The position numbers and the translations under genes are program-made. Shown one piece after another: positions 22,995-40,325 of a DNA stretch of 64,000 nt; within the stretch, counting starts at the first letter, position 1, and each line of letters opens with the position of its first letter. Source of the DNA: a virus; the IMG/VR virus record IMGVR_UViG_3300050821_003529, positions 45,129-109,128 of that record. One strand, 5' to 3'. The notes under the pieces are model-generated. The model made no database searches and had not been told where the DNA came from. It saw only the letters and a list, made by a program, of their open reading frames with translations.

Positions 22995-23167
22995 GATTTA
23001 ATCCTCTCTATTAATTCGTCCCAATCCTCTTTAGCGTATTCTCCCCCACTGTCAGGGCCACGCTCAGACTCTAAGAAATCTACGATGACTTTTATTTGAG
23101 CGTCAAGACTTCCGTTTGTTACGTGCCCATCGAAAGTTATCCCGGCTTTATGTAGTTTTTCTCTCAT
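22991..23167 (-). CDS. Small acidic phage protein (58 aa)
   Basis: ATG 23167 overlaps the cREC gene's stop as ATGA; its own stop overlaps the MazG-like GTG. Helical C-terminus (DFLESERGPDSGGEYAKEDWDELIERI). No function recognised. Supported mainly by the coupled overlaps. Confidence 0.6.
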   Translation of the reverse strand: MREKLHKAGITFDGHVTNGSLDAQIKVIVDFLESERGPDSGGEYAKEDWDELIERIKS

Positions 23168-23541
23168 TCTTTGTCCTGAATATCAAATGTTCCAAACGGA
23201 AGCTGTATCGCTCCCGGCAGAATCACTTCAAGGTTTCGTGTACCAGCGGGATTGCAGCTGTGTATGATAGTTCGTCTGCCAATCTTTGGGTCTTGTTCAA
23301 ACATATACTTCGCTATATCAGTGCTAAAAGGTGGCTCGAATGGACCGCCTAGATCGTGATCGAGAAAGAACATATCAATTTCGTTTATGTTAAATGCTCG
23401 CAGGGCTTGGATAGCATTTGCAGGTTTGTCGTGTATTCCAATAATTTTGGAACCGAGTTTATTAATAAACCATCCAATACGGCTTAGATCATCCTCAACG
23501 ATAAAAATATGGGCAAGCGATGGAATGTAGATCGTGTTCAT
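23164..23541 (-). CDS. cREC-type receiver-fold protein (cyclic-phosphate processing receiver)
   Basis: 125 aa from ATG 23541, preferred over the in-frame GTG at 23553 because ATG overlaps the upstream stop (ATGA). IFIVEDDLSRIGWF, MFFLDHDLGG and TIIHSCNPAGTRN are the signature blocks of the cREC family (receiver fold with DD, DHDLG and HSxNPxG motifs). This family is predicted, not proven, to process cyclic phosphates in conflict or repair systems. It lies about 0.5 kb downstream of the NAD+ salvage pair. Confidence 0.8.
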   Translation of the reverse strand: MNTIYIPSLAHIFIVEDDLSRIGWFINKLGSKIIGIHDKPANAIQALRAFNINEIDMFFLDHDLGGPFEPPFSTDIAKYMFEQDPKIGRRTIIHSCNPAGTRNLEVILPGAIQLPFGTFDIQDKE

Positions 23542-23675
23542 ATGCCGAACCACTTCGTTAGATAAAACCTAGCGTGAATTGTTGAGACTTGAATTGTTGC
23601 CCAGATAGCCATAAAATTATCTGGCTTTAATAAACCGTGTTGAGGACAGAACAAAGCTTCATATAGCCAAGTCAT
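23538..23675 (-). CDS. Small coupled protein (45 aa)
   Basis: ATG 23675 lies inside the end of the endonuclease VII gene and the stop overlaps the cREC start (ATGA). Hydrophobic/aromatic content is high (MTWLYEALFCPQHG..., WATIQVSTIHARFYLTKWFGI). No motif. The precise coupling and the filled gap argue that it is real. Confidence 0.5.
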   Translation of the reverse strand: MTWLYEALFCPQHGLLKPDNFMAIWATIQVSTIHARFYLTKWFGI

Positions 23676-24051
23676 GCTTTAGCCTCAAATACTTACAGAT
23701 TCTTTTAAATCCGATTCTTAACATGCGGTCGAGTTGCCCAAGCATTGCGTTGCATGGGATACACAAAAGACCTCGAACACATTTACCACAAGATCGCCTG
23801 CCGGGACAACATTTGTGATCGTGATCTATAACCCATTTCTTCAATGCTACTCTACATAGTTTACATAAACCACTCTGTTTTTCAAACATTCGCTTTACAG
23901 TCTCGGGAGTTAAATTGAACCTGTATTTTAAGCGATATGTATATAATTTCAAAGTAAATTCTTTTAAAGTTAAACTATTTCTCCATCGTTTAAAGTTAAT
24001 GCGTGCTCTTTGCGGCAACGTTTCAACGGGATAAATACGAGGTCTACCCAT
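23659..24051 (-). CDS. Endonuclease VII family protein
   Basis: 130 aa. The C-terminal half holds CKLC, VIDHDHKCCPGRRSCGKC and GLLCIPCN, the zinc/HNH core of endonuclease VII-like enzymes (about residues 62-105). The N-terminal 55 residues are strongly basic and may bind DNA. Closely related to the partial gene at 1-207. It could resolve branched replication DNA or be a free-standing HNH nuclease. The start overlaps the NadV stop at 24051. Confidence 0.85.
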   Translation of the reverse strand: MGRPRIYPVETLPQRARINFKRWRNSLTLKEFTLKLYTYRLKYRFNLTPETVKRMFEKQSGLCKLCRVALKKWVIDHDHKCCPGRRSCGKCVRGLLCIPCNAMLGQLDRMLRIGFKRICKYLRLKHDLAI

Positions 24052-25487
24052 TACTCTGCCCTTTTCCTAATTTCTTCTACCGTCTGGTCGATTTTTAGTT
24101 CCCCGTTTTCAAAGACTGTTTTTAGATTATCGCTTGTGTATATCAGACCGGGTTCAGCTTTGACGGTGATGAATTCTCTGCCATTGTGCCCGAGAACTAA
24201 GCGGCCCCGTTTACTAGCCTTACTTGTATCAGTGATCGTCTCTTTCCATACGTCTCTTTCCACACCGTCAACTGTAATGGAGGAACATTTGATAGCAAAT
24301 CGTTGCGTATCTCGGTCCAGTCTCTGTAGAAGCGCCCCACCCATGCCGAATGCGACGTTTTCAGCCGCCCACCCCCGATTGTGGATATGCGCTAGAATCC
24401 CTCTGATGGATTCATAGTTTACTCCGTCTCCTTGAATCACTCTAACGTGTGGATTAAGAACCTTGAATCCTTTACTATTTACTTCGGACCCATATTTACT
24501 ATCGAGCCATTCGAGGACATTTCCTACAGCAGTCGCCGGGTCCCCTGAGTCTGGACGTACCACGACAGCCCCATCTCGGTGAATGATCTGATTTCGAAGT
24601 TTCCATCCAAGAACTACATTGACGGCTTCCTTCAAATCGTAAGAATCACTGACAATGGCCACAGTGCCGGGATATTGATCAAGCATATTTTTCATTGCCT
24701 GATATTCGTTATCTTTGCCCCAGGATGTGATTGTTGAATGCTCTGCTGCAGGAATACTGAATCCGTACATCCCTGGCCCTGGGAATTGACCACCCTCATT
24801 TTTAAGAGTAGATGTGACTATCTCTTTTGCTTCGATTTTAGAATAATATTCTTGCAAATGCAAGATTCCGGCAATTGTATCCGTGCCCTGAAAATTAAGA
24901 AGATGAGCGGCCCCGCCAACTCCTGCTGTTTCCTCTGAACTGACCCCTCTGTATCCAAAGTCGTGTAGCTTGAAATTTATGCCACTAAGGTCTGAACCTG
25001 TCTTTGTATGATAGTCTGTGATAAGTTTCTTGATTTCCCGAGACAGGGTTGCAACCGTTGTCGGATACCACACCTTCATTAGAATCGTTTCGAGATAATT
25101 CGTCAGCCACGGGAAGTCCGCATCCGTATTCTCGATTGTCATCAAAACATTATGAACTGGAATAACAGAGCCTTCAGGAACTGCCTTAATCTTAATAGGC
25201 AGAACACCATCGTATTTATTGTACAACTGATACCATCCGGTATAGTTGAAACAATCGGTTCGACTGAAATGTGCCAAAGCAAATCGATTTGCAGCTTCTA
25301 TATCTTTCGGTGTGAATACTTTCCCTACCAAGTATTTCTTCAAGAGATATTGCAGACCAAAGAATACTGTGTTGTCGAATTGACCGCCACGACTTTCTAG
25401 ATAAGAGTAGACATACTGTGTCTTTGGCGGGTATTGTTTGAAGTGTGTCAGTTTATATGAGTCGGTCTGCAGCAGTAAATTCGTCAT
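24051..25487 (-). CDS. nadV: Nicotinamide phosphoribosyltransferase (Nampt/NadV)
   Basis: 478 aa, about the length of eukaryotic NAMPT. Family blocks are easily seen: DSYKLTHFKQYP at the start, HDFGYRGVSSEETAGVGGAAHL (about 175-195), GFSIPAAEHSTITSWGKD, VSDSYDL, VVVRPDSGDP and VIQGDGVNY. It makes NMN from nicotinamide and PRPP. It is paired with the NMNAT-Nudix gene, overlapping it by 35 bp, so together they can rebuild NAD+ from nicotinamide. The ribosome binding site AGGAG lies within the upstream gene, as does a promoter at 25508. Confidence 0.95.
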   Translation of the reverse strand: MTNLLLQTDSYKLTHFKQYPPKTQYVYSYLESRGGQFDNTVFFGLQYLLKKYLVGKVFTPKDIEAANRFALAHFSRTDCFNYTGWYQLYNKYDGVLPIKIKAVPEGSVIPVHNVLMTIENTDADFPWLTNYLETILMKVWYPTTVATLSREIKKLITDYHTKTGSDLSGINFKLHDFGYRGVSSEETAGVGGAAHLLNFQGTDTIAGILHLQEYYSKIEAKEIVTSTLKNEGGQFPGPGMYGFSIPAAEHSTITSWGKDNEYQAMKNMLDQYPGTVAIVSDSYDLKEAVNVVLGWKLRNQIIHRDGAVVVRPDSGDPATAVGNVLEWLDSKYGSEVNSKGFKVLNPHVRVIQGDGVNYESIRGILAHIHNRGWAAENVAFGMGGALLQRLDRDTQRFAIKCSSITVDGVERDVWKETITDTSKASKRGRLVLGHNGREFITVKAEPGLIYTSDNLKTVFENGELKIDQTVEEIRKRAE

Positions 25488-26409
25488 TGAAGAAGTCTCC
25501 TGAATTTATACTAACCCAAGCTTTCAAAGTTGTCAACAACTTTTTATGGCAATCTTCCATCTGCGCCTCTTTTATTTCAAAGAGGTTGAACCATCCGGCT
25601 TCAGCTGCGTCGTCTCGACCTTTGGGAGCGCCATATATAAATCGGAGCGCAAAGAGAGAAGTATGTACAGCAATTCCAGCGCCGATAGCTCTCCAATCAG
25701 GCAGACTACAACTGGACGTGACGTAGATCGGGGTTCCGACTTCAAGTCCGGTTTCTTCTCGGACTTCTCGATTGACGGCGGATTCGTAGGATTTGTCATC
25801 GTATTCCACTTTCCCACCAGGAAATTTGAGAAGTTTTTCATCTGGTTTCCTGATCAATACAACTCGAATTTCATCCTCGCTCTTTCTTAAGACAGCGCCG
25901 TCAACGCATGGCACTATCAGACTTGGATTGTTTAGAATTCCATAGATTGCACCGGCACGGAAACTTTCTTTTTCCTGAGGCATGGCTGCTGTATATTCTC
26001 GAACAGTTGTGCCAGAAGATTCAACAGACTGTATAATTTCGCTTGTTTTGTATCGCCCATTATATTGATCGATGAAACTGTCTCGTGCTCCATAAAGTGT
26101 CACTTGACAAAGTGAAAATACACTCTGGATAATTTTATCTACTTGCTCTGACCACTGATCATTTGATTGCGTATCTGTCACTGGTGCAACTAGAAAGTCT
26201 GGATACTCTTGATGAAACATCAATGCCCGAGTATGGTAGTCAAGAGGATCACTCTTACCACCCTTCCACGCAGGCGATCCTAGTAGAATTAAAACCCGTT
26301 TATGTCTAGTTGCGACTAAATCGAGTAGACTCCGATGACCTTCGTGAAGATTCGGCACTTGAAATCGACCGATCACTACACCAACGTCTGTAGCCCCAGG
26401 TAAACTCAT
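25453..26409 (-). CDS. nadM: Bifunctional NMN adenylyltransferase / Nudix hydrolase (NadM-Nudix)
   Basis: 318 aa from ATG 26409, which overlaps the upstream small gene as ATGA; an ATG 36 bp further out is less likely. Residues 14-25 GRFQVPNLHEGH form the nucleotidyltransferase HxGH-type site; the NMNAT domain ends near 150. A Nudix domain follows, with FPGGKVEY and REVREETGL (about 196-221); the spacing from GG to the REV core is one residue longer than canonical. It converts NMN plus ATP to NAD+, and the Nudix part may act on ADP-ribose or NAD-like substrates. It pairs with NadV. Confidence 0.93.
   Translation of the reverse strand: MSLPGATDVGVVIGRFQVPNLHEGHRSLLDLVATRHKRVLILLGSPAWKGGKSDPLDYHTRALMFHQEYPDFLVAPVTDTQSNDQWSEQVDKIIQSVFSLCQVTLYGARDSFIDQYNGRYKTSEIIQSVESSGTTVREYTAAMPQEKESFRAGAIYGILNNPSLIVPCVDGAVLRKSEDEIRVVLIRKPDEKLLKFPGGKVEYDDKSYESAVNREVREETGLEVGTPIYVTSSCSLPDWRAIGAGIAVHTSLFALRFIYGAPKGRDDAAEAGWFNLFEIKEAQMEDCHKKLLTTLKAWVSINSGDFFNDEFTAADRLI
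25508..25536 (-). promoter_or_regulatory. Sigma70-type promoter within nadM, reading into nadV
   Basis: TTGACA (25531-25536), 17 bp, TAGTAT (25508-25513) on the leftward strand. The spacer contains GAAAGCTTG, similar to the other promoters of this block. The predicted start is about 25501, shortly before the nadV ATG at 25487, so nadV could be expressed separately. Confidence 0.65.
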
Positions 26410-26549
26410 GAATAGCATCTCATAATTCTGGTGATAGTTTTCCACGCTGCTTGAATTTCTAGTAGTGTTTGTTCTGCTTTTTCGGCACGTTTCTTTAGTT
26501 GAATATTCTCTTGTTCTAGTTCAGAATTGCGTTTGATAAGATCGTTCAT
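26406..26549 (-). CDS. Small coiled-coil protein (47 aa)
   Basis: ATG 26549 overlaps the transglycosylase stop (ATGA) and its own stop overlaps the nadM start (ATGA). The sequence is a heptad-like charged helix (LIKRNSELEQENIQLKKRAEK). Function unknown; it fills a gap of about 140 bp between two genes. Confidence 0.6.
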   Translation of the reverse strand: MNDLIKRNSELEQENIQLKKRAEKAEQTLLEIQAAWKTITRIMRCYS

Positions 26550-27079
26550 TTGCCAGCCAGTGCCAACACCTTTAGAACATAGGCGTCAGCTTCTGGTCCT
26601 ACGCCGTCGTAGTGACTTATACCAGAGCGTAGTCCATATTGTTTGATCATTTCAGACATAATTTGAGTGCCGACTCGCATGTTCTCTTTCGGATTAAAAA
26701 GATTGATTGCACTAAATTGTTCAAATTTTTCAGATTGCACTTTAACGTTCACTTGAGTCAAACCAACTGCGCCACGATTGCTGATCGCCAGCGGATTGCA
26801 GGACGATTCGACGCTGATGATGGCAGCGATTATGTTAGCTGGTACGCCAGTTCTGAGTGAATTCTCAGCGGTCATTTCAGCAAGAGTTATATCGCCGCAG
26901 CCAGCTTTGCCATAAATTCTGCTAGCGTCAAAGAAGGCTTGGCGATAAGCTGGAACATCGTAGGGACTAGGATTAACCGCCATAGTATGTGTCGGTACCG
27001 GTAAAAGCATCAGGAAAATTAATCCTAGTGGCGACATTGAAGCTACTGTGATTCCAAGTGCCTTTAACCAGTCTCGCAT
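26546..27079 (-). CDS. Membrane-anchored lytic transglycosylase (SLT fold)
   Basis: 177 aa. A hydrophobic segment at residues 10-33 gives a signal anchor to the periplasm. The SLT core starts near 75: Glu91 in IISVESSCNPLAISNRGAVGLTQV is the catalytic acid, followed by NLFNPKENMRVGTQIM and SGISHYDGVG. It cleaves peptidoglycan and may assist lysis with the GH108 endolysin at 28442. A poor ribosome site (GGAGAAACC) precedes the ATG. Confidence 0.88.
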   Translation of the reverse strand: MRDWLKALGITVASMSPLGLIFLMLLPVPTHTMAVNPSPYDVPAYRQAFFDASRIYGKAGCGDITLAEMTAENSLRTGVPANIIAAIISVESSCNPLAISNRGAVGLTQVNVKVQSEKFEQFSAINLFNPKENMRVGTQIMSEMIKQYGLRSGISHYDGVGPEADAYVLKVLALAGK

Positions 27080-27087
27080 GGTTTCTC

Positions 27088-27456
27088 CTAAAGAATGTAC
27101 ATTTCTTGTGCTATGATTATTCGTGGATTCTTAGTGAATCCGCCGTCTCCAATTCCTTGTTTTGTAGCTTTGCGATATCGAACCTTAAAAACCTTATAAA
27201 TGTCTCGGTTTTCTGGTTTCTCACGCCTACATATAAAGTTATCGTACCAACGAACACATTCGTCAGCTTTTTCCCGTGTCGTATAAATATGAAATCCAGG
27301 TTCGTCATGTCCACTATCTTCTGCTATAAGCCACTCATTCCCCGGATTCGGCGTGTCCATGAATGCGGAATACAAAGTATTGTTGTCTACTCGGAAAACT
27401 TTGTAACCATAACCACTCAGCACAGGTTTCTTATTACTAACTTCTTCTATGCACAT
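27088..27456 (-). CDS. Phage protein of unknown function (122 aa)
   Basis: Good ribosome site (AAGGAG 8 nt before ATG 27456). Alpha/beta pattern with YGYKVFRVDNNTLYSAF, GFHIYTTREKADE and KVFKVRYRKATKQG. No enzyme motif recognised; similar single-domain proteins are common in phage accessory regions. Confidence 0.7.
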   Translation of the reverse strand: MCIEEVSNKKPVLSGYGYKVFRVDNNTLYSAFMDTPNPGNEWLIAEDSGHDEPGFHIYTTREKADECVRWYDNFICRREKPENRDIYKVFKVRYRKATKQGIGDGGFTKNPRIIIAQEMYIL

Positions 27457-27471
27457 TTTATCTCCTTAAAA

Positions 27472-27525
27472 TTAGACCGGTACTCGCCGAAAGCGGTGGT
27501 ACTGCCACTCGCCTCCACTTTCCCG
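27472..27525. other. Structured intergenic RNA candidate
   Basis: The 77-bp gap 27457-27533 holds an outer stem GACCGG / CCGGTC closing about 54 nt. Inside are short hairpins CGC-CGAAA-GCG and GTGG-TACTG-CCAC. No T-tract follows on the leftward strand. It could be a processing or leader structure upstream of the 122-aa gene. Confidence 0.4.
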
Positions 27526-27533
27526 GTCATGTC

Positions 27534-27752
27534 TTAGAGTGCGAATCCCGTCTTTTCCTCGTCTGCCTTAGGCTGGAACTGAGCCTCAACCAAGTCCACA
27601 GCCGCTACCAATGCACTGACAATTTTAGTAGCGTACTCCGGATTGGTATTCTGCTTCGCCAACCTACCGACAACTCGGATTGCCTTGATAGCCTTATTAA
27701 CTCGGGCTGTGGCAAGCCGGGTGAATCGCTGCTCTTTTGTTTCTTTTTCCAT
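27534..27752 (-). CDS. Small helical basic protein (72 aa)
   Basis: Start ATG 27752 (GAGGCG upstream), placed just after a promoter at 27769; the longer frame would begin at the promoter itself. Strongly helical, Ala/Lys/Arg-rich (FTRLATARVNKAIKAIRVVGRLAKQ). No motif recognised. Confidence 0.65.
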   Translation of the reverse strand: MEKETKEQRFTRLATARVNKAIKAIRVVGRLAKQNTNPEYATKIVSALVAAVDLVEAQFQPKADEEKTGFAL

Positions 27753-27768
27753 GTTCGCCTCTATTGTT

Positions 27769-27797
27769 AGATTAACAAATTTACTTCTTCTTGTCAA
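27769..27797 (-). promoter_or_regulatory. Sigma70-type promoter
   Basis: TTGACA (27792-27797), 17 bp, TAATCT (27769-27774) on the leftward strand. The spacer contains GTAAATTTG, related to the AAGTTTG of the other leftward promoters. Drives the 72-aa gene and those below it. Confidence 0.75.
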
Positions 27798-28137
27798 GAT
27801 GTTTTTTAACTAATTTCTTCAGAAGTTCATTTGCCACTGCGGCTCCGGTTGTATGATTGTCGTCTATGTTACGTCCAGAAAGAGCCTTCCATGAAGTTTC
27901 TTCAGGCGACCACTGCCCCTCTAATCCGTTGCACGAGCAGTGTGAACCGTTTACTTCATAAAGCTGGCCGTCTTTTTCAAAGATCACTAACGATTGACCG
28001 TCGTAATTGCCGTAGCCATACCAAGCTAGATATATCTTAGCTCCTTTCAGGGCGTCATCAGGAGCATGGTAGTTGTTGATAATATCTTCCCTATCTGTAA
28101 AATTTTCTACATACGGATTTGATGTTCGTCTATTCAT
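27781..28137 (-). CDS. Phage protein of unknown function (118 aa)
   Basis: Start ATG 28137 with TTAGGAG upstream. Contains GAKIYLAWYGYGNYDGQSLVIFEKDG and a Cys pair SHCSCNGLEGQWSPEETSWKAL; phage proteins with this WYGYGNYDG/CSC layout are common but uncharacterised. Ends in a lysine-rich tail. Confidence 0.7.
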   Translation of the reverse strand: MNRRTSNPYVENFTDREDIINNYHAPDDALKGAKIYLAWYGYGNYDGQSLVIFEKDGQLYEVNGSHCSCNGLEGQWSPEETSWKALSGRNIDDNHTTGAAVANELLKKLVKKHLDKKK

Positions 28138-28147
28138 TTTTATTCTC

Positions 28148-28441
28148 CTAATATATTTCTGTGTTTCCATTTTTATCCGGGTGATCTCGCTTCCATTCTC
28201 GGTGTAGTTTTAAGAAGTATGCTTTTTCATACAAAATCTTATACATATAGTAGCACAATTCACAAACTTCACCAAATTCGACAGTGCGATAATTATCTAC
28301 TGACGGTAACGGGTACTTACAATCTGGATTACCGCATTCACCAGGACAGCGTTCTAACAGTTGATCGATCAATCGAGAATTAACTCGGAGTATTTCTCGT
28401 TCCTTCGGAGTCAGCTTTTTAAATTCAAAATCATAGATCAT
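28148..28441 (-). CDS. Cys-rich small protein, zinc-ribbon-like (97 aa)
   Basis: ATG 28441 directly follows the endolysin stop (TAAATG). Helical N-terminus, then CPGECGNPDCKYP and CELCYYMYK give a C-x3-C-x4-C...C-x2-C set near residues 32-65 that could hold zinc. Function unknown. Confidence 0.65.
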   Translation of the reverse strand: MIYDFEFKKLTPKEREILRVNSRLIDQLLERCPGECGNPDCKYPLPSVDNYRTVEFGEVCELCYYMYKILYEKAYFLKLHREWKRDHPDKNGNTEIY

Positions 28442-28909
28442 TTAACTATTCACTCGACGTATCCACCCGTTCAGGAACACCCGATCCTGTGGCTTATCGT
28501 TAGCGATACCGATAGCATATGTAACTAGAGCCGTCTTGTACGTTGTCAACAAATTTGCAGGATCAATTTGATTCAAGCAGGCTAGGGTATGGGGACCGAA
28601 GTCGCAGTCCACCTGGACGCCTAGGAGAATTTGAAGTAGTTTGATAGCTTCGCCGACGCCGAACAGGACGCCCATATCAAAAATTTTATCGGTCACTAGT
28701 TGGGAGCTAATTTCAGAATAGAGACTCTTCCAATAGTGCTCCTGATAATACGCCGTTGCCTGATCTGAAGTTATATCCTGAATGTTCACTCCAGGCATAT
28801 CCTTCTGAGTGATACCGTATTTTGTCGGGCCACCCGAATCGTTTGGGTTGTCGACATACCCGCCCTCATTAATCAGGGTTTTTGCTATTGCAATTTTTGA
28901 ATCCGCCAT
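28442..28909 (-). CDS. Endolysin, glycoside hydrolase family 108
   Basis: 155 aa, AGGAG 10 nt before the ATG. NEGGYVDNPNDSGGPTKYGIT (Glu15 catalytic) is the GH108 signature, and the C-terminal half is a peptidoglycan-binding domain (GVQVDCDFGPHTL). It lacks a signal peptide, so a holin or another pathway must give access to the wall. No clear holin adjoins it; a 45-aa membrane protein at 29995 is a candidate. GH108 enzymes are typical of phages of Gram-negative hosts. Confidence 0.93.
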   Translation of the reverse strand: MADSKIAIAKTLINEGGYVDNPNDSGGPTKYGITQKDMPGVNIQDITSDQATAYYQEHYWKSLYSEISSQLVTDKIFDMGVLFGVGEAIKLLQILLGVQVDCDFGPHTLACLNQIDPANLLTTYKTALVTYAIGIANDKPQDRVFLNGWIRRVNS

Positions 28910-28922
28910 TTAATTGCTTCTC

Positions 28923-29060
28923 CTAAAGTAGTTCTTTTCGTAATTGCTCTAAAATTTGTAGTACAGATTCTCTCCACGTTACTAAGCCAGGATGACGGTC
29001 TTTTAATAAGAGAGCCAAGGTTTCGGAAAGTTCTTGTACCCGGTCGAGATTTAACTTCAT
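28923..29060 (-). CDS. Small helical protein (45 aa)
   Basis: ATG 29060 overlaps the upstream stop (ATGA). Leu-rich amphipathic helix (LNLDRVQELSETLALLLKDR). The stop lies where the endolysin ribosome site begins (TAGGAG), which supports coupling. Function unknown. Confidence 0.55.
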   Translation of the reverse strand: MKLNLDRVQELSETLALLLKDRHPGLVTWRESVLQILEQLRKELL

Positions 29061-29299
29061 TGTTCCTCTTTTTTATCTAAACGATTCCATAAAAATTTAA
29101 CTCTCGCATTAGCCTCTTCCAAAGTCTTTCCGGTCCTGGTTAAATATCCTATCAAGCCGGTGCATACTTGGCAATTATCTGCAAACAATTGCTGCTCTTG
29201 AGTTGACGGAATATAAACTCCGTGAGTGCATTTTTTACCCGGCTCGATATTCGGTACCCAACCACTGACTGGTATTACAAGGTCCTCCCGACTAAACAT
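29057..29299 (-). CDS. Small zinc-binding-like protein (80 aa)
   Basis: ATG 29299 with GGGAG upstream is preferred over ATG 29305, which abuts the ribosome site. CTHG and CQVC (near residues 24 and 43) may bind zinc; the rest is helical. It overlaps the 189-aa gene by 8 bp. Confidence 0.6.
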   Translation of the reverse strand: MFSREDLVIPVSGWVPNIEPGKKCTHGVYIPSTQEQQLFADNCQVCTGLIGYLTRTGKTLEEANARVKFLWNRLDKKEEQ

Positions 29300-29861
29300 T
29301 ATCATCTCCCTTGAATTCTTCTATTGCATCATTTAAAGCTTTTCTTTCATTCGGAGTAGTCAAAGCTATCCAAAACCGTTTCCAGAAACTCTTTTTCAGG
29401 GGAGTCACATACGTGACTATGTTAGGCGGGAGAGCAGACGTCGCTCCATTGATTAATCTTTCACTAGCGGAAGGCTTATTTGAAGAAGCCATGACCATTT
29501 TCAAAGCTTCAGGAAAATCAGGATCAGTGTTATACCACGTTCGGTTGCACATGACACATTTGATCATTTGATTGCCATCTACAAATGTGTGCATGATTAT
29601 ACAGAAATCGAACACAAATAAAGGAAGTTTAGGTTCAAACTTTAGGAAACTCTCGCTATTTATATCCGGAGTCGGGATAGTCCACGCCTGCCCCTTCCTA
29701 TGTGAACAAGCTTGCTGAACTTTCATTAGTTCAATTTGCATCTTTTTCTGCATTCTCGCCATAAAATCGTCTCGCTTTGCCTTATCTATTACTTCTTTCT
29801 CAGCTAGCTCATTAAACTTTTCAAGCAAATGATCTTTTATTTCTTGGTCGTTGTCGGGCAT
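29292..29861 (-). CDS. Putative zinc-binding protein, paralogue of the 924-1613 product
   Basis: 189 aa. The N-terminus is helical (residues 1-50). ACSHRKG near 52 and IMHTFVDGNQMIKCVMCNRTW near 90-110 match the rightward 229-aa protein in order and spacing, suggesting a C-x-H...C-x2-C zinc site. The C-terminus is shorter and differs. A duplicated gene in opposite transcription blocks may have separate early and late roles. Confidence 0.75.
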   Translation of the reverse strand: MPDNDQEIKDHLLEKFNELAEKEVIDKAKRDDFMARMQKKMQIELMKVQQACSHRKGQAWTIPTPDINSESFLKFEPKLPLFVFDFCIIMHTFVDGNQMIKCVMCNRTWYNTDPDFPEALKMVMASSNKPSASERLINGATSALPPNIVTYVTPLKKSFWKRFWIALTTPNERKALNDAIEEFKGDDNV

Positions 29862-29998
29862 GATTCCTCAAATTCTTTACGTTCTTTGTCTCTTAAATCT
29901 TGAAGCATTTTACTGGCTGTCGTGTCAATCAATTCTCCGGCTTCAAACCTATCGAGTATTTCTTTCCAGTGTTCGAATCTATCTAAGTTTACGATCAT
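29837..29998 (-). CDS. Small charged protein (53 aa)
   Basis: ATG 29998 overlaps the stop of the membrane protein upstream (ATGA) and the gene overlaps the next by 25 bp. Charged helix with FEHWKEILDRFEAGELID. No motif recognised. Confidence 0.55.
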   Translation of the reverse strand: MIVNLDRFEHWKEILDRFEAGELIDTTASKMLQDLRDKERKEFEESCPTTTKK

Positions 29999-30132
29999 AG
30001 ATAGTACGTGAACAACTTCAACAATCCTAGAGCGATCAACTTACCGAATAGTGGTATGAGTATAAAAAGAATCGCCACAAACATCAGTGCGGAAAGAACT
30101 ATTCTGCTGATTTTCTCTTCAATCTTTTCCAT
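29995..30132 (-). CDS. 45-aa single-pass membrane protein, holin candidate
   Basis: ATG 30132, stop overlapping the next ATG. Charged N-terminus MEKIEEKISR, then a hydrophobic segment (IVLSALMFVAILFILIPLF) and a second weaker hydrophobic stretch. Small size and proximity to the endolysin (about 1.1 kb upstream) make a holin or spanin-like role possible, but this is only inference. Confidence 0.5.
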   Translation of the reverse strand: MEKIEEKISRIVLSALMFVAILFILIPLFGKLIALGLLKLFTYYL

Positions 30133-30347
30133 GTACACTCCTCGGGATACGCTAGAAAATACCCAGTTTTGTATATGACTCGATTTTTCTGATCCAACTT
30201 GAATTCCTCTTCACTGAGCATGATCGGAACAGGGTCCGAATAACGTATAACTTGACGCTCATTTGGTTCCTCTGATTGACGTAATCGGTTATAGACTTCA
30301 TCCCGCTTCTGCTTGTCGAAATACTGTAACGTTGTCATACCATTCAT
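30099..30347 (-). CDS. Phage protein of unknown function (82 aa)
   Basis: ATG 30347 overlaps the upstream stop (ATGA) and has GGGGAGG upstream, so it is preferred over the longer frame. Soluble, charged (YFDKQKRDEVYNRLRQSEEPNERQ). No motif. Confidence 0.6.
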   Translation of the reverse strand: MNGMTTLQYFDKQKRDEVYNRLRQSEEPNERQVIRYSDPVPIMLSEEEFKLDQKNRVIYKTGYFLAYPEECTWKRLKRKSAE

Positions 30348-30466
30348 AGCTTGAATCCTCCCCATGGTTCATCATTTATCAAATCGGCTGCAATCAAGAC
30401 TACAGCGATCAAGAGAACACCGAACAAAGTAGCCCATTGCGGGGCAGTTAATGTATCCCAACTCAT
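30344..30466 (-). CDS. 40-aa membrane peptide
   Basis: ATG 30466 overlaps the GNAT stop (ATGA); stop overlaps the next start (ATGA). One hydrophobic helix (WATLFGVLLIAVVLIAADLI) with a short acidic tail. Function unknown. Confidence 0.5.
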   Translation of the reverse strand: MSWDTLTAPQWATLFGVLLIAVVLIAADLINDEPWGGFKL

Positions 30467-30891
30467 GTTAGCTCTATGTAGAAGTATTTTCGTCTCAATC
30501 CATCCTGGTCACAATGAGAACATGGTCGTCTAGTTTTTCTTATTTTAACCGGATAAATTTTCGCTAATTTCTCCTGCCACATACGTCGAGAAAATTGATT
30601 CAACGTATTATCAGATTGAATTTGTTTAGCTCCAATGCTCCTGGCTGTTTCAATCAGAGCTATATAAAGATGAATCCCATGCCCTTTGTTTCTAAACTTT
30701 TTGAAAATTTCCGTGGCACTAGTTTCAAAAATTTTACGTCTTTTACTTATTAAATTTAACGAACCGTGCCCAATTGCTTCTCCGTTTAAAAAGAAACCCA
30801 TTGTATGATAGCTCCACCGGCCCTTCACATCTTTGATGGAAGTAATCAGTTTATGCTCAGCAGTAGCGAAAATCGATGTGTATTTTCTCAC
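30463..30891 (-). CDS. GNAT family N-acetyltransferase-like protein
   Basis: 142 aa. FRNKGHGIHLYIALIETARSIGAKQIQSDNTLNQFSRRMW follows GNAT motif A/B: the RxxGxG-like RNKGHG loop for acetyl-CoA, a helix, a strand and an N/S-rich loop. The C-terminus adds a CSHC pair. Substrate unknown. It is more complete than the GNAT-like virion-block gene at 12177. Confidence 0.8.
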   Translation of the reverse strand: MRKYTSIFATAEHKLITSIKDVKGRWSYHTMGFFLNGEAIGHGSLNLISKRRKIFETSATEIFKKFRNKGHGIHLYIALIETARSIGAKQIQSDNTLNQFSRRMWQEKLAKIYPVKIRKTRRPCSHCDQDGLRRKYFYIELT

Positions 30892-31619
30892 TAGTCCCGC
30901 TCCATAGGAGAGGGCGAATAGTTCTCGGCAATCATTTCAGGAGTTCTATTCGCCTCTGCTTTTGGGCAACGGCACTTATCTGATTTACAGATGTGGTTCG
31001 CAAGTCGTTCTTTACGTTTTGCTTCTTTCTCGTCCTGAAAGACTTGTGCCTCATAATCTGCTTCAGCTTCGGCAGCGGGACCACGAGCCTGATACTTGTC
31101 CGGATGAGCAAGAAAATCTTCAAACTCAACAGGACCGTAATCAGCGTATTCGACAGCAAACAAACGCTGCCAACGGTTATGCAATCGGCCTTGGTTATTG
31201 ATCACTCGGGTATCTGGCTCATCTTTGTGAAAACCATGCCAGATGTTGTGCAAATGACCGTGAATGTTCAAGTAAGTGTGCTTCGGCAATGATTGTGCCG
31301 GTCGATGAGTAATCCACGTGTGCCGGAAGATCATGGCATCTATGGCGATATCGAAGCCATTCTCCATCCACCACAAAGACGGATGTTTATCGTGGTTGCC
31401 CCGTACCAATACCTTTCTACCGGGCAACAGCGGGTAAATCTGACGCCAGCCATCCGGCTTGCCGATAAAAACATCGCCCACATGGATAACCATATCATTT
31501 GGATGAACTTTATTCTGCCAGTTCCGGACGATCAACTCGGTAAAATTATCCGGACGTTGACAGTACGTGGCGATATTCTGATGATTAAAATGCGTGTCTG
31601 AAATCAACCAAGTTTTCAT
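30891..31619 (-). CDS. Calcineurin-like metallophosphoesterase
   Basis: 242 aa. Complete motif series: ISDTHFNHQNI (D-x-H), HVGDVFIG (GD), RGNHDKHP (GNHD), and HGHLHN (GHxH). Phage enzymes of this type act on nucleotides, phosphoproteins or nucleic-acid ends. A basic, Cys-containing tail (KRKERLANHICKSDKCRCPKA) extends past the fold and may bind zinc or DNA. Confidence 0.9.
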   Translation of the reverse strand: MKTWLISDTHFNHQNIATYCQRPDNFTELIVRNWQNKVHPNDMVIHVGDVFIGKPDGWRQIYPLLPGRKVLVRGNHDKHPSLWWMENGFDIAIDAMIFRHTWITHRPAQSLPKHTYLNIHGHLHNIWHGFHKDEPDTRVINNQGRLHNRWQRLFAVEYADYGPVEFEDFLAHPDKYQARGPAAEAEADYEAQVFQDEKEAKRKERLANHICKSDKCRCPKAEANRTPEMIAENYSPSPMERD

Positions 31620-31816
31620 TTGTTCACCGTGATATACTTTTTCTTAGACCACCAATGCCAGTGACTCCTAGTAGTACTTTGAAACCAAGTCTCTTCTACG
31701 TAGAGAGTTTCTAACCAACGAGTAGTTCCATCATCACATTCGATTGGAAACCACGCAAATATCTTCCGGAAGCGTTTGTCTCCGTGCTTTGGATGTGCAG
31801 GCGTTAACCACTTCAT
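31616..31816 (-). CDS. Small Trp-rich protein (66 aa)
   Basis: ATGA overlaps at both ends. Basic, tryptophan-rich (FRKIFAWFPIECDDGTTRWLE, SHWHWWSKKKY), a compact beta pattern seen in small phage proteins. Function unknown. Confidence 0.65.
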   Translation of the reverse strand: MKWLTPAHPKHGDKRFRKIFAWFPIECDDGTTRWLETLYVEETWFQSTTRSHWHWWSKKKYITVNK

Positions 31817-32313
31817 CTGATTCTCGCTAAAACATAGTCTAGCACAGCCGGATCACCGAAGTCAAACTCTACCATGGTGCCAATTTCTTCCTTGATTTTA
31901 TGATCAACTTCCAAAGCTCGTATCTTATCTTGATATCGTCCCTCTTGAACGTACGGCTTATCTCCCCGACGAATGAAAATGTTCTCATAAGCGAAGTCTT
32001 GATTGTACGTCTGACTAAGCAAACGCATCGCTGGCTTCAAATGTTCCGGCGAGTAGACGATACTCAAATCAACCGGCGAATCTGTTACAGTGTTCTTGAT
32101 ACCATTCTTCAGAAACCGGTACTCATACTGCATCTGCTTCGCCATGATGTAAATCTGATCATAGTGATCGACAGGTCGCTTGGCGTAGGCCCATGCTTTG
32201 ACGTACTCATTGACGTGCTCTACACTTACCAATCGCCGCTTCAATTCCGAGAACAACCATGCTGCCGTAGTACTCTTTCCACTGCCTGGACCGCCGAATA
32301 AGTTAATTCGCAT
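31813..32313 (-). CDS. P-loop NTPase/kinase-like protein (AAA_28-type)
   Basis: 166 aa. Walker A GGPGSGKST at residues 7-15, then a kinase-like layout: DSPVDLSIVYSPEHL in the middle, FIRRGDKPYVQEGRYQ and a short C-terminal region. It resembles phage AAA_28 proteins, whose fold also includes the NadR ribosylnicotinamide kinase. A nucleoside or nicotinamide riboside kinase role would fit the NAD+ genes, but no specific residue proves it. Confidence 0.75.
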   Translation of the reverse strand: MRINLFGGPGSGKSTTAAWLFSELKRRLVSVEHVNEYVKAWAYAKRPVDHYDQIYIMAKQMQYEYRFLKNGIKNTVTDSPVDLSIVYSPEHLKPAMRLLSQTYNQDFAYENIFIRRGDKPYVQEGRYQDKIRALEVDHKIKEEIGTMVEFDFGDPAVLDYVLARIR

Positions 32314-32316
32314 CGA

Positions 32317-32529
32317 TCAAATTCCCCACGATTTTGATTCCTCTATTTCAGTTAACGATAGAATACCTTCTGTTATTCCCAAACTTTTGATAACTGCTTT
32401 ACCGTTTGAAATAGCCTCTTCTATATCCCACGCCTTGACAACAATTTCTAAATCTATTTTGGCAAACTCAATTGGAGCAGAGTTATACTTGAAAGCACGT
32501 TTGTAAAACTTACAACGAAAATTTGTCAC
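32317..32529 (-). CDS. Small phage protein (70 aa)
   Basis: GTG start at 32529 overlapping the upstream TGA (GTGA). Alpha/beta pattern, FKYNSAPIEFAKIDLEIVVKAWDIEEAISNGKAVI, reminiscent of small ferredoxin-like folds. Function unknown. Confidence 0.6.
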   Translation of the reverse strand: MTNFRCKFYKRAFKYNSAPIEFAKIDLEIVVKAWDIEEAISNGKAVIKSLGITEGILSLTEIEESKSWGI

Positions 32530-32753
32530 AGACTATTTCTCCACAATCCAGTTTGTTCTTTAAGAAAATTTACGATTTCTTCTAGGCATCCAGCATCTAA
32601 TTGTATCAAATTTGAATTACAAAACACATACGTTCGCCACGAAGGATTAAATGAAATGATTCCAAGTTGTCCCCCATATTGAATATTTTCAACCTTCCAT
32701 CGCTTAGTCTTTCGAGTCGGATTCGGAATTTCTGTAAACGTTAGATAGCTCAT
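32526..32753 (-). CDS. Small phage protein (75 aa)
   Basis: ATG 32753 overlaps the upstream stop (ATGA). Contains [30 protein letters not shown], a strand-rich segment found in phage proteins of unknown function, followed by a helix. No active site seen. Confidence 0.65.
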
Positions 32754-33082
32754 GATTTAAAATCCTCAGACGGATTAAACCAATCATCCTTGACAATGTG
32801 CCCGATAGCGTGAACTTTAACATGTTCACAACGGACACGGATAGTTTTTCCTTTCATCTTAGACCATTCAGTCACTCCAGCTATTTCCATGCAGCGATAA
32901 ATAAAATGACCGGCTCCGGAATCGATTGTATGGTTCTTAAAAGATTTCGGAAGATATAAAGCATATCCACCAAATCCTTGACCACTTCCGCCGTAGTCTA
33001 GATAGAGCCATGCAGACAAACACCCGTGATCATCGGAAGTGATTTCTATAGATTCTATCACAGCATTTTTCGTTTCAATCAT
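32750..33082 (-). CDS. Phage protein of unknown function (110 aa)
   Basis: Start ATG 33082, overlapping the upstream stop (ATGA) with AAGGGA upstream. It carries the very recognisable but uncharacterised phage block [22 protein letters not shown] and [11 protein letters not shown]...MKGKTIRV (about residues 20-85). I know of no function for this family. Confidence 0.7.
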
Positions 33083-33276
33083 ATTCCCTTTAAAGTGACT
33101 TGAACTATTGAGTGCCAAGGAAATCCCGCTTTATCTTCTCCATGATAATAAAAGCCATTTTGTTGAACATTCCGTATAAAATCTACTACAATAGCTGAAT
33201 CTGGTCGAGTCTCATGTTCACCTATTTCAATTCTAAAGTTACGATCACCTTTCGTTTCTATGTAAAGGTATTTCAC
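33079..33276 (-). CDS. Small phage protein (65 aa)
   Basis: GTG start overlapping the upstream TGA (GTGA), stop overlapping the next ATG. Beta-rich ([20 protein letters not shown]). Function unknown. Confidence 0.6.
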
Positions 33277-33623
33277 TCTACACCGTGTTTAAACTTATTC
33301 GAGCCGTCTGAATTATGAATAATTCTAGTCACCGGTTCCGGTTCAAAATCGTTCATATGATTCGGGTCCTCTTCCTGAGCCGGAAGCTCAGCCATCTCGA
33401 TGCCCGTCGCTACATGAATAGGTGCAGCTTGAACTAAAGCTTCGCCTAGTTTAATGGCTTCGTCGTAAGCCTTTAAAAGAGCGTCCACTCGTGACATATC
33501 GCCGATATGCAATCCAGCTTCCCGATTCAGACGAAGCTGACGAATCGCCTCTTCTGGAGTCTCAACATGTACTTCTTTAACCTGCTTACCCATACTGGCT
33601 CGGGCTGTCTTGCTTATTTCCAT
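33273..33623 (-). CDS. Phage protein of unknown function (116 aa)
   Basis: First gene after the promoter at 33641; AGTGAGG is the ribosome site. Helical N-terminal two-thirds (PEEAIRQLRLNREAGLHIGDMSRVDALLKAYDEAIKLG) and an acidic C-terminal tail. No motif. Confidence 0.7.
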   Translation of the reverse strand: MEISKTARASMGKQVKEVHVETPEEAIRQLRLNREAGLHIGDMSRVDALLKAYDEAIKLGEALVQAAPIHVATGIEMAELPAQEEDPNHMNDFEPEPVTRIIHNSDGSNKFKHGVE

Positions 33624-33640
33624 TTTGTCCTCACTTTAAG

Positions 33641-33669
33641 AGAATATCAAACTTTCAGAATATTGTCAA
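33641..33669 (-). promoter_or_regulatory. Sigma70-type promoter
   Basis: TTGACA (33664-33669), 17 bp, TATTCT (33641-33646) on the leftward strand, with CTGAAAGTTTGA at the spacer's 3' end as in the recombinase promoter. Drives the 33273-33623 gene and the run below it. Confidence 0.85.
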
Positions 33670-33950
33670 GCCTTATTTAAATCCTGCCAATGTTTCTTTT
33701 GAAGCTCCCAAGGGTGTCCAGCTAATACGCCGGTTCCGAGAAATCTTGCTGACAGAGCTTTAATCTTTCGACCACCATATACGGCGGCAACAGACATAAA
33801 CGCTTCCATTTCACATCCTGATGTAGAATTTAAACCGATGACAAGTTTCTTTCGCACTTCCCAACGCTTATTCCAATATACTTTGTATTCAACTTCCCAA
33901 ACGTTAATTCCGCTCCATAACGGCTCTCGTTTATGAGATATTTCTACCAT
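33666..33950 (-). CDS. Phage protein of unknown function (94 aa)
   Basis: Alpha/beta look with VWEVEYKVYWNKRWEVRKKLVIG. Its 3' end carries the -35 box of the promoter at 33641. Starts at ATG 33950, overlapping the zinc-ribbon gene's end. Confidence 0.65.
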   Translation of the reverse strand: MVEISHKREPLWSGINVWEVEYKVYWNKRWEVRKKLVIGLNSTSGCEMEAFMSVAAVYGGRKIKALSARFLGTGVLAGHPWELQKKHWQDLNKA

Positions 33951-34093
33951 CGCCGATAAATTCCTTTCTTAGTTGCTTCCTGATCATTCAGGACATCCGG
34001 CTGCATTTGTTCCCCGCAGTCTTGACATTTCGGTACAGGAGCATCTTGTTTGACCGGTTGACGAACACGACATTTATGGCAGATGTAGTTCAT
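33944..34093 (-). CDS. Small zinc-ribbon protein (49 aa)
   Basis: ATG 34093, GGGAG upstream. CHKC at residue 5 and CQDC at residue 24 form a classic C-x2-C...C-x2-C ribbon. Basic C-terminus. Likely a nucleic-acid or protein adaptor; function unknown. Confidence 0.65.
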   Translation of the reverse strand: MNYICHKCRVRQPVKQDAPVPKCQDCGEQMQPDVLNDQEATKKGIYRRW

Positions 34094-34102
34094 TTTTCTC
34101 CC

Positions 34103-34261
34103 TTATTGTGTAAATGCTAAACCTAGTAAATAAGCAAAAAGAATTACGAATATCGGTACTCCTATCATTGGTTTTATAATCGCAAACACGATGAGGCAGA
34201 ATGGTGCGAATGCAAATAAGAGTATGCTTAAACCGATTCCTAAACAAGCTAAATGCTTCAT
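34103..34261 (-). CDS. 52-aa membrane protein with two hydrophobic segments
   Basis: ATG 34261 overlaps the NADAR stop (ATGA). Two hydrophobic helices (LGIGLSILLFAFAPFCLIVF and GVPIFVILFAYLLGLAF) joined by a short basic loop. Could be a membrane anchor or a second holin candidate; unknown. Confidence 0.5.
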   Translation of the reverse strand: MKHLACLGIGLSILLFAFAPFCLIVFAIIKPMIGVPIFVILFAYLLGLAFTQ

Positions 34262-34686
34262 TTTATTTCCTCTCTAACTTGCATTAAAAGTTTTCCAAGT
34301 TTATTCTTACCGATTCCGTTGCAGACTCCCCAATATGTGTCATTCCACCAATTCATTTCAACTAACTCCTGATCACCGGTTTCCAAAAGTCTCATACGTA
34401 AGTCCGAGTCGAAAAACTTTTCTCGAAGAATTTGAAGCATGATAGCATCTTTAATGCGATCCCAATCAGCACGTAAACTATGTAAATATTTCTTTCCGCC
34501 CAATCGTTTTGCCTGTGACGGATTTGGTGCATTGTAGATAGTCTCACGGTCAATTGGATCGGTCGTTTTCTCTGATTGGTAGGCGTGTTCGGCTGACATG
34601 AGAATTCTATCTCTCCATTTGATCGGATAGATATAGAAATTTGACAGAAAAGTATATCGACCTGTGAATCCATTGATCATCGGCAA
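34258..34686 (-). CDS. NADAR (YbiA-like) ADP-ribose-processing protein
   Basis: 142 aa with the full family pattern: FTGRYTFLSNFY, MSAEHAYQSEK (Glu33), NPSQAKRLGGKKY, WDRIKDAIMLQILREKF, LLETGDQELVEMNWWNDTYWGV and GKNKLGKLLM. NADAR proteins can be N-glycosidases removing ADP-ribose from guanine in DNA (as in DarT1 antitoxins) or act on ADP-ribosylated ribonucleotide derivatives. In a phage this could undo DarT-type defence or serve NAD+ salvage with NadV/NadM; that link is inference. Confidence 0.92.
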   Translation of the reverse strand: MPMINGFTGRYTFLSNFYIYPIKWRDRILMSAEHAYQSEKTTDPIDRETIYNAPNPSQAKRLGGKKYLHSLRADWDRIKDAIMLQILREKFFDSDLRMRLLETGDQELVEMNWWNDTYWGVCNGIGKNKLGKLLMQVREEIK

Positions 34687-36644: not shown

Positions 36645-37293
36645 GTATTTTCTTATAATATTCGTACATCAACTCAGGGCGGTATTTCACCTGCAATGCA
36701 CTAGATAAATGGAAAGTTGTTGCGCCTTTAATCTTCGATCCTGGTCGCCAGCGGTACCCCTTGTGCCATACCGGATAAATGTAGTTATCGCCTAATACCC
36801 CAGAAACATATACATCTTCTGGAAATGATGCGAGTGGTCCATTCGCTACGTAGGACATAGCATCTCGACTTAACCAATAGCCTGCACCGCCACTCGCAAA
36901 CGAAATTTTTCCTCCGACGCATTCAGGAAAAGCCGCATTTAAACTAGGCGGAAGATTATCACAATTTTCAGCGCCCATATAATCATATTGTTCGAATCCA
37001 CTTTCTAAAAGACGCTTCGGATTAACAACGGTATCAGTATCACACTTGAAAAGAAAATCATAATTATTGGTAGCAGCCCATCTACAAATTCCTCTCGTTT
37101 TAACGGCTAGATTATCATATGTATCTAAACAAGGAACCCATACCTCAAGGTGATTTTCAGGCTCACTCAAACCGCCGATAAAGAAACGACAGTCTATATC
37201 CATAGTGGATAAAGTACCAAGCCACGTATCGAGCATAGCTTGATGCAAATGTCGATTTGCCTGACAAGACTCAACAGCAGCCAATATCTTCAT
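36634..37293 (-). CDS. GT31/Fringe-like glycosyltransferase, copy 1
   Basis: 219 aa. RxTW-equivalent LDTWLG near residue 23, DTYDNLAVKTRGICRW, then the metal motif CDTDTVV (DxD intact, near 91-97), GGAGYWLSR and PEDVYVSGVL. This is the pattern of GT31 (beta-1,3-galactosyltransferase/Fringe fold) enzymes, which transfer sugars from UDP donors. One of four such genes in the island and the one closest to the eukaryote-like family. No membrane anchor, so cytoplasmic. Confidence 0.8.
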   Translation of the reverse strand: MKILAAVESCQANRHLHQAMLDTWLGTLSTMDIDCRFFIGGLSEPENHLEVWVPCLDTYDNLAVKTRGICRWAATNNYDFLFKCDTDTVVNPKRLLESGFEQYDYMGAENCDNLPPSLNAAFPECVGGKISFASGGAGYWLSRDAMSYVANGPLASFPEDVYVSGVLGDNYIYPVWHKGYRWRPGSKIKGATTFHLSSALQVKYRPELMYEYYKKILDK

Positions 37294-38081
37294 CGGGTTT
37301 TAATCTCCGGAGTCCAGTTTACACGATAGTCTATCATTTGTCCAGCGAAATCTCGTTCAAGTTCCTCGTGACACTCTTGATAACAAACGTGTTTTTCTTT
37401 CAAGTAAGTATCTGAAAACGACGGACTTTCCAGCGCCCGGAAAAAGTCGGTATGAATTTCCCTCGAATCTACGTTTTTAAGCCACTTAAGCGGTACTTTA
37501 TCGGTGTTAGCTTGATGCTTTCTAGCGACAAGCATTTTCCCTGGACTAAAAATAGCTAATTGATCCTTAAGCCGTGCTGTTCTAGAGAAAACGCTATCCT
37601 CGCCAAAAGTTACATCTGGATACGGGTGCTCACGCCACCAACTTTTCCAGTACATCTGGGACGTTCCGGATGCGAAATAAGGAGGACCGCCTTGATTCCT
37701 ATAAAAACCCCGTGTCTTTTCATCATAACATATTGTCACGTTGTATCCTGTGACGGCTTTCTGAGAATTTTCTAAGTGCATGACTTGAGTTTGAATTCTA
37801 TGAGCCATACTCCAGTCGTCATCATCCCAATTAGCGATTATATCACCTGTGGCTAAATCGGCACCCATGTTTCTTTTTGTGCCTGTCGGTGTACGTTTAC
37901 TCAGACGGACATAAACAAATGGAATATCTAAATTTTGAGTCCATGATAAATCACCACTATCATCAACAAAAATCAGTTCAAGAGGTCGATATGTCTGCTG
38001 TAAAAAACTACGTATAGCCACAGGAAGAAATTGTTGACGATTATATGTTGGACAAACTAGGCTAACTGTTGGGAGCGACAT
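37290..38081 (-). CDS. Family 2-type (GT-A) glycosyltransferase
   Basis: 263 aa from ATG 38081 (GGAG upstream; the longer frame begins with GTG). LVCPTYNRQQFLPVAIRSFLQQTYRPLELIFVDDSGD (donor site) and ANWDDDDWS (DxD region, about residue 88-95) define the GT2 GT-A domain. The acceptor side near 140-200 is divergent. Start overlaps the fucosyltransferase-like gene by 20 bp. Confidence 0.88.
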   Translation of the reverse strand: MSLPTVSLVCPTYNRQQFLPVAIRSFLQQTYRPLELIFVDDSGDLSWTQNLDIPFVYVRLSKRTPTGTKRNMGADLATGDIIANWDDDDWSMAHRIQTQVMHLENSQKAVTGYNVTICYDEKTRGFYRNQGGPPYFASGTSQMYWKSWWREHPYPDVTFGEDSVFSRTARLKDQLAIFSPGKMLVARKHQANTDKVPLKWLKNVDSREIHTDFFRALESPSFSDTYLKEKHVCYQECHEELERDFAGQMIDYRVNWTPEIKTR

Positions 38082-38922
38082 TTGGTTCTCCACTATGAAT
38101 TTTAGTTATCTTCGGAGTCCACGAATCTGTGATAGCGTTAACCAAACGGCCTATCCTATCTGAGTATGTAAGAGACTTCAGATAATTTTCTTCTATCGCT
38201 GCCTGGACCTTAGGTGAATGATAAAAATCAGGTGTCAAGGACAACAAAACATCATTCAAGGTTGTCCTAGCTCTAGGATCGTAAGGATTACCAAAAGACA
38301 AAATGCCGTCTGGATTAAAAAATTCTCCGACATTGGCGCTTCCCCAGAAAATAGGAATCGTCTTAGTAGCAAAACAATCTAAAAGAATTTCCGAGAAGTA
38401 GTTATGCATCTGAGAATTTTGAATTGAAATTGCATATTGAAATGGTATTAGCATACTCCGCTTGTCGGGTAGATAAGGAGGGGACATGTGCATCGTTAAA
38501 GGACAAGGTAGGGCAGAATTACTTCCCTCTAAATACTGTTGTAATTTCTTAAAAGTCATGACACGGAATTTATGCCCAGGACACATCGTCTTTGCACTGG
38601 TCAAAAAGGAAACGGCAAATTTTTTCTGTGATACATCACTTTCGTGGGTCCAAACTCCATTGTTCAAAAAGAAAACAGCATTAGAGCATTCACTTAGTAC
38701 AGTATTATTGTAAGTCAAAATGAGATCGTAGAATTGGTGATTCTTGATGAGTTTCTTTTCCGTTGGAGTGATGTCTTCAGGCTCTAACTGCCAAAATATT
38801 TTGTACGGCGTTCGATCTTCAAAATTGAAGTAGTCTACCGAAATCGATGCTCTCCAATTCAATTCAGGAACATTCAACTCGTGGTTAGCGTAGATGACAG
38901 GTTTGTAAGTTTTATTTTCCAT
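38062..38922 (-). CDS. GT10 (alpha-1,3-fucosyltransferase)-like protein
   Basis: 286 aa. FQYAISIQNSQMHNYFSEILLDCFATKTIPIFWG and FFNPDGILSF (about residues 165-210) match the conserved GDP-fucose site of GT10 enzymes (usual form FxxxxEN...YxTEKxxD...PxYxG), with Gln where Glu is usual. GT10 enzymes use GDP-fucose or related GDP-6-deoxysugars; the island could supply such a donor. Substitutions leave some doubt about activity. Confidence 0.75.
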   Translation of the reverse strand: MENKTYKPVIYANHELNVPELNWRASISVDYFNFEDRTPYKIFWQLEPEDITPTEKKLIKNHQFYDLILTYNNTVLSECSNAVFFLNNGVWTHESDVSQKKFAVSFLTSAKTMCPGHKFRVMTFKKLQQYLEGSNSALPCPLTMHMSPPYLPDKRSMLIPFQYAISIQNSQMHNYFSEILLDCFATKTIPIFWGSANVGEFFNPDGILSFGNPYDPRARTTLNDVLLSLTPDFYHSPKVQAAIEENYLKSLTYSDRIGRLVNAITDSWTPKITKIHSGEPNVAPNS

Positions 38923-39624: not shown

Positions 39625-40325
39625 TGATCTGCTCCGTGCTGCCGATACATATCGAACATCCAACGAGAGCCTACCGGATAGCCGTCTCTAATCACCGGGT
39701 CTATAATTCCTTGCGCTCTATAGTGCCACGAAGTCTCGTTCCAAAAATGATCTAGAGACTTAATTGTCATTTCCCCACGTTCCTGCATCGGCTTTAAAAC
39801 GTCGCAAGCAAGATTTTCAAAATGCAAATGATCCGGAGTTGTTTTCAGAATAGCTTCAGAGGCTCGTCGTGAAAGAAAATATCCAGCACCGGGTTCAACG
39901 TAATATTGATCAGGCTTATCTGAGTGGGTATACATCATCCAGCCAGAAAAATCGTAGTTTTCAAAACCACTTTTCATCAACTTCCGTGGTATCAAGAAAG
40001 TGTCATTTTCAGCGAGAAACGTGTAATCGTATCCGTTACGTAGCGACCAATCAAGAATTCCTCTATAAAGGACTTGCCAGTATTCGACGCAGCAGCCTGC
40101 TACGGCTGTCCAATAAGGGTGCTGACACTTCCTAGTTCCGTCCTCTTGCCAAGGAATCGATGTTTCATCAGCTTTTGGCTTATAAAACTTATCACGTCGC
40201 CCAAGGAAAAAGCGTAGATCGGCACCGGTTATAGCAACGTCTTTCCCCCAAGTTTGCCGAATCTTATCGTGATTCCCGTTTTCAGCGTCTCCCTGAAAAG
40301 AAATAATCGCTATTAAAACTCTCAT
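39621..40325 (-). CDS. GT31-like glycosyltransferase, copy 3
   Basis: 234 aa. GNHDKIRQTWGKDV near residue 18, FLAENDTFLIP (E-N-D in place of DxD), PGAGYFLSRRASE, and SWHYRAQG. Tandem neighbour of copy 2, so a likely local duplication. The ATG overlaps the FkbM stop region. Confidence 0.78.
   Translation of the reverse strand: MRVLIAIISFQGDAENGNHDKIRQTWGKDVAITGADLRFFLGRRDKFYKPKADETSIPWQEDGTRKCQHPYWTAVAGCCVEYWQVLYRGILDWSLRNGYDYTFLAENDTFLIPRKLMKSGFENYDFSGWMMYTHSDKPDQYYVEPGAGYFLSRRASEAILKTTPDHLHFENLACDVLKPMQERGEMTIKSLDHFWNETSWHYRAQGIIDPVIRDGYPVGSRWMFDMYRQHGADQ

Follow-up and report, generated by a model that had tools for sequence, protein, structure and literature searches.

The 64,000-nucleotide stretch of viral DNA analysed here (the window; positions 45129-109128 of the 109,128-base virus record IMGVR_UViG_3300050821_003529) carries on its minus strand two overlapping genes, nadM and nadV, which we read, with a probability of about 0.72, as a NARP2-type cassette of two genes for NAD+ salvage, rebuilding NAD+ after its destruction by the NAD+-cleaving enzymes (NADases) of host defences. 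NadV (24051-25487) is a predicted canonical nicotinamide phosphoribosyltransferase (Nampt) with matches to NAMPT_N (1.2e-34), NAPRTase (9.2e-56) and phrog_448 (1.1e-155), and the gene upstream of it (25453-26445; NUDIX, 1.8e-11) is predicted to encode a NadM-type HxGH nicotinamide mononucleotide (NMN) adenylyltransferase (NMNAT) fused to a Nudix domain and belonging to a divergent clade, here called type II. Since the genes overlap, by 35 bp (25453-25487), they are probably co-translated. Because alignments of NadM homologues begin at about residue 13, the GTG at 26445 probably lies upstream of the true start, which is likely ATG 26409. An earlier, sequence-only reading of the window had reported this overlap correctly and had placed cREC, NadV, NadM-Nudix and NADAR proteins in the region, as well as an AAA_28-type kinase; the first four families lie where it put them and pass their Pfam cut-offs (that of Nudix in the case of nadM), and all five matches are far above chance level. 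Its view that the pair is NARP2-like in composition is likewise well supported, by active-site motifs, the modelled fold, conserved gene order and the lack of the NARP1 clamp.

For NadV, the alignment places all Nampt active-site motifs (TDSYK, HDFGYRG, NFQGTDT, AEHST with H250, RPDSG and RD) in the window protein; these serve to bind nicotinamide, ribose and phosphate, and the catalytic histidine is among them. The protein shares about 50% identity with Nampt proteins of phages and bacteria, scores 598.6 bits on PRK09198 (cut-off 405), and matches Nampt structures in the Protein Data Bank (PDB) at E about 1e-137, compared with about 1e-79 for 9w5w/9w5x. The corresponding NARP1 enzyme, Namat, is set apart from Nampt by the aromatic residues of a clamp helix (PMC12774641). 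At this site, the window NadV has GGALLQRLDRD, as against GSFTYEFCTRD in a Namat-like protein from another viral contig (L108), and thus has none of the clamp aromatics. Considering this absence together with the retained motifs, we read NadV as a predicted Nampt that uses phosphoribosyl pyrophosphate (PRPP), and an assignment of the pair to NARP1 was rejected because the clamp is missing; no gene for Adps, the other NARP1 enzyme, was seen among the annotated proteins, no search aimed at Adps having been made.

The active-site residues of NadM are also kept on alignment, namely HEGH, D91, W98, T-x-R149 and REVREETG. D91 and W98 do not vary among phage NadM proteins, and in archaeal NMNAT this Asp and Trp line the NMN pocket. 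The AlphaFold model of the protein (mean predicted local distance difference test score, pLDDT, 82.5) has solved NadM enzymes (2qjo, 2qjt, 2r5w) as its six best PDB matches, and these extend across both domains. Based on the sequence preceding HxGH, we separated phage NadM proteins into type I (GRFQPFHxGH) and type II (GRFQVxxLHxGH), and on a NadM tree from which unclassified rows were left out, the type changes once. Pairing with nadV is the rule: of 138 sampled viral loci, 120 have nadM no more than 4 kb from nadV and 36 have type II NadM beside nadV, and 42 bacterial type II loci show the same pairing. Type II nadM stands directly upstream of nadV, with a median gap of 52 bases, in viruses, Bacteroidota, Kapaibacteria, Ignavibacteria and the candidate phyla radiation (CPR). 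On the NadV tree, the type of the NadM partner changes 7 times, compared with about 25 times in shuffles, and the nadM-nadV pairs therefore travel largely together; the window NadV itself clusters with one NadV from a Verrucomicrobia bin and three viral NadVs, all with type II partners (98% support in the Shimodaira-Hasegawa-like approximate likelihood ratio test, SH-aLRT). Current libraries name type II NadM “cytidyltransferase”, as PHROGs does for the window protein, or leave it unnamed, so surveys of NARP2 based on standard NMNAT models may undercount such pairs. The clade is a useful new detail in this sense, an annotation gap and not a new system. Single-protein scans with NadM, and likewise with cREC, yielded no usable relatives. 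Among the viral loci, Rhizobium phage V1VFA-S (L020:5246-10630) carries consecutive genes for RtcB, NadM, NadV and a membrane protease of the SPFH family, and several other loci also have an SPFH gene no more than 10 kb from nadV.

In the mechanism that we propose, host defences such as TIR, SIR2 and similar NADases would cleave NAD+ to nicotinamide and ADP-ribose; NadV would combine the nicotinamide with PRPP, and the resulting NMN would be adenylated to NAD+ by NadM through its HxGH domain. The Nudix domain fused to the latter would probably convert ADP-ribose to AMP and ribose-5-phosphate, or trim excess dinucleotide. The analysis shows the genes, motifs, fold and conserved pairing; the catalysis and the Nudix substrate are inferred, as is the counter-defence role, by analogy with the NARP2 family, for which activity against NADase defences has been reported (PMC11984713, PMC12300627). 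Several observations weigh against this scheme. NadM shares only 21-28% identity with its canonical phage counterparts, scores far below the cut-off of the NCBIfam NMNAT(-Nudix) equivalog models (47.6 bits, cut-off 397), and has a modelled domain orientation unlike that of the templates (root-mean-square deviation about 13), while in NadV about 20 extra residues (about 217-238) are inserted just before the catalytic histidine, without counterpart in the eight other aligned phage NadV proteins. Both the catalysis by NadV and NadM and the restoration of NAD+ in infection are predictions only. Moreover, the same cassette is also found on bacterial chromosomes, where it serves ordinary salvage, and counter-defence is therefore not its sole possible role. 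The pair could instead be an auxiliary metabolic cassette that raises the NAD+ supply for phage growth generally and is not specifically directed at NADases, which we consider unlikely. Such a role would agree with the identical gene order on chromosomes of Bacteroidota, Kapaibacteria and CPR, and with the other metabolic genes of this phage (IMPDH, ThyX and nucleotide-sugar enzymes), but it fits less well with the reported activity of NARP2 pairs against NADase defences, or with a phage-encoded DNA ligase that is ATP-type and therefore no obvious consumer of NAD+.

The sequence-only reading had gone further, tentatively joining the pair with NADAR and cREC, and possibly with the kinase, into one counter-defence assembly. 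The idea that all five form a single counter-defence module, acting on what NADases and ADP-ribosylating toxins produce, appears very improbable to us. We compared 50 NadV-positive viral contigs (61-318 kb) with random contigs, and found NADAR in 13/50 compared with 0/23, and cREC in 12/50 compared with 0/13; the random controls were small and not fully matched in size, and this enrichment may therefore largely reflect genome size. While each gene thus occurs in about a quarter of the NadV-positive contigs, the two occur together in only three, with 3.1 expected if they were independent. For gene distances, we compared the observed positions, some of which are approximate, with random placement, and counted genes within 10 kb as near. 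cREC shows no linkage to nadV (2/12 near, 1.8 expected). NADAR lies near a NadV-family gene in 6/9 contigs of a sample selected for NADAR (1.6 expected, p about 0.001), at least one of these genes being of Namat type, but in the sample selected for NadV it is near nadV in only 2/13 (2.0 expected), which is no linkage. In one NADAR-positive contig, L108, a NARP1-type Namat gene lies about 3.3 kb from NADAR (L108:3563-5011 and 8311-8715). Iyer et al. 2022 (PMC9503650) do describe gene neighbourhoods that NADAR shares with NadM and NadV, and found NADAR in more than 48% of medium and jumbo phages and NadV in 22-33%. The combination was already described there, and is therefore not novel. Taken together, NADAR is a plausible but unproven companion of nadM-nadV, the NARP2-like cassette should be taken to exclude cREC and the kinase, and NADAR and cREC are better described as common large-phage genes than as a proven joint system; the chance-rate co-occurrence is a warning that a shared genome gives no ground for reading the two as one system. 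Also highly improbable, in our view, is a self-contained cycle recovering both NADase products, in which the Nudix domain would supply ribose-5-phosphate for PRPP, NadV and the HxGH domain would rebuild NAD+, and NADAR and cREC would feed in ADP-ribose from bases and cyclic phosphates.

What the three companions do individually bears on the same question. NADAR (34258-34686, minus strand; 1.8e-23) lies about 7.8 kb and more than 12 open reading frames (ORFs) upstream of nadM, a separation that the earlier text had passed over. Its catalytic residues are kept, and E33, K40 (the Lys at +7), E110 (the late Glu), D116 and W119 of its ADP-ribose pocket are invariant, in keeping with the YbiA (Glu) class. 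It would act as a separate N-glycosidase of the same NAD+/ADP-ribose network, on an ADP-ribosylated base or on a small molecule. That it belongs to the family holds; the claimed removal of ADP-ribose from modified bases is unproven, since the protein is of YbiA class and passes the cut-off of TIGR02464, a riboflavin N-glycosidase model (86.7 bits, cut-off 73.7), and the two activities cannot be separated from its sequence. It is possible, though we lean against it, that NADAR cleaves riboflavin-pathway intermediates or another small molecule, with no ADP-ribose role. This would suit its class and its failure on the anti-phage NADAR model (60.8 bits, cut-off 240), as well as the finding that in vivo rescue was obtained only with DarT1-linked and similar NADARs, with K-12 YbiA and T4-type NADARs giving no rescue from DarT1; yet all NADARs tested de-ADP-ribosylated guanine in vitro (PMC11125620), and relatives lie near NadV-family genes in the one sample. 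The cREC protein (23164-23541 from its ATG, or to 23553 if an upstream GTG is the start; minus strand; PF20274, E=6.7e-9, 36.7 bits, cut-off 27) keeps the acidic N-terminal motif, DHDLG and HSxNPxG, and a tblastn search of phage records with it gave no match; it would be a large-phage gene carried independently. Iyer et al. (PMC9503650) predict that cREC acts on RNA cyclic phosphates or on ADP-ribose cyclic phosphate, and not on immune second messengers as such. We tentatively entertain, at somewhat less than even odds, that its role is in RNA repair, where it would open the cyclic phosphates at RNA ends or the ADP-ribose cyclic phosphate that NAD+-dependent repair leaves behind. This prediction is in keeping with a MazG-like gene and a calcineurin-like phosphoesterase gene in the region around cREC, and with the 30 transfer RNA (tRNA) genes of the phage (record 17.6-31.1 kb, all outside the window; most amino acids are covered). 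Against it, no KptA, sirtuin, T4 Rnl1 family or RtcB similarity was found in the 109-kb record, whose completeness is not known, other ligase families not having been searched. The family assignment and motifs of cREC thus stand without these repair partners, and we rejected an NAD+-dependent RNA-repair island. For the AAA_28 P-loop kinase (31813-32313, minus strand; 4e-10, above the cut-off), the suggestion of an NAD-precursor enzyme found no support: its profile gave a weak deoxyguanosine kinase match and no NadR chain among solved structures, and its relatives lie beside dCMP deaminase, ribonucleotide reductase or DNA polymerase genes, with only Myxococcus phage Mx1 having one near nadV. 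A NadR-type nicotinamide riboside kinase was rejected on this basis, and the protein is most likely a (deoxy)nucleotide kinase.

Reading leftward on the minus strand, the region has NADAR, the P-loop kinase, nadM, nadV, endonuclease VII, cREC, the MazG-like gene, an integrase and an SPFH protein. The recombination endonuclease VII gene (23659-24051, minus strand), identified by family match and probably unrelated to the cassette, was absent from the earlier text. No near DNA relative of the region was found in the phage collection, and scans for promoters and terminators gave signals no higher than in shuffles. A nucleotide-sugar/glycosyltransferase island (37290-46502, minus strand) encodes GDP-mannose 4,6-dehydratase, epimerase, dTDP-sugar epimerase, DegT aminotransferase, FkbM methyltransferase, GT11 and galactosyltransferase families. 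A family-A DNA polymerase is seemingly split (55937-58425, with a short match only in 55937-56923), and a polymerase exonuclease-subunit gene lies at the opposite end of the record (L002:1825-2565). The terminase, portal, capsid and tail genes (including 369-8651 in the window) are 25-39% identical to those of Tunturiibacter phage Tunturi_3, a hint, though no proof, that the host is of Acidobacteriota type.

Compared with the phage NAD+-ADPr networks of Iyer et al. 2022 (PMC9503650), this record has no detected sirtuin or KptA and contains a type II NadM, which the passages of that article consulted here do not mention. With NARP1 (Adps and Namat), the pair shares a homologous phosphoribosyltransferase fold; it differs in the missing clamp aromatics and in having NadM-Nudix as the partner. 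With NARP2, it has in common the same two predicted activities, adjacent genes, intact Nampt motifs and the absence of the Namat clamp, while its NadM belongs to the divergent type II clade and its function is a prediction from sequence; our analysis adds one NARP2-like pair, from an uncultured soil-type phage. Finally, the bacterial nadM-nadV operons of Bacteroidota, Kapaibacteria and CPR (L342-L391) have the same gene order and type II NadM, and the best of their NadV proteins are 53-57% identical to that of the window, but these operons are chromosomal and without phage context, unlike the pair described here.
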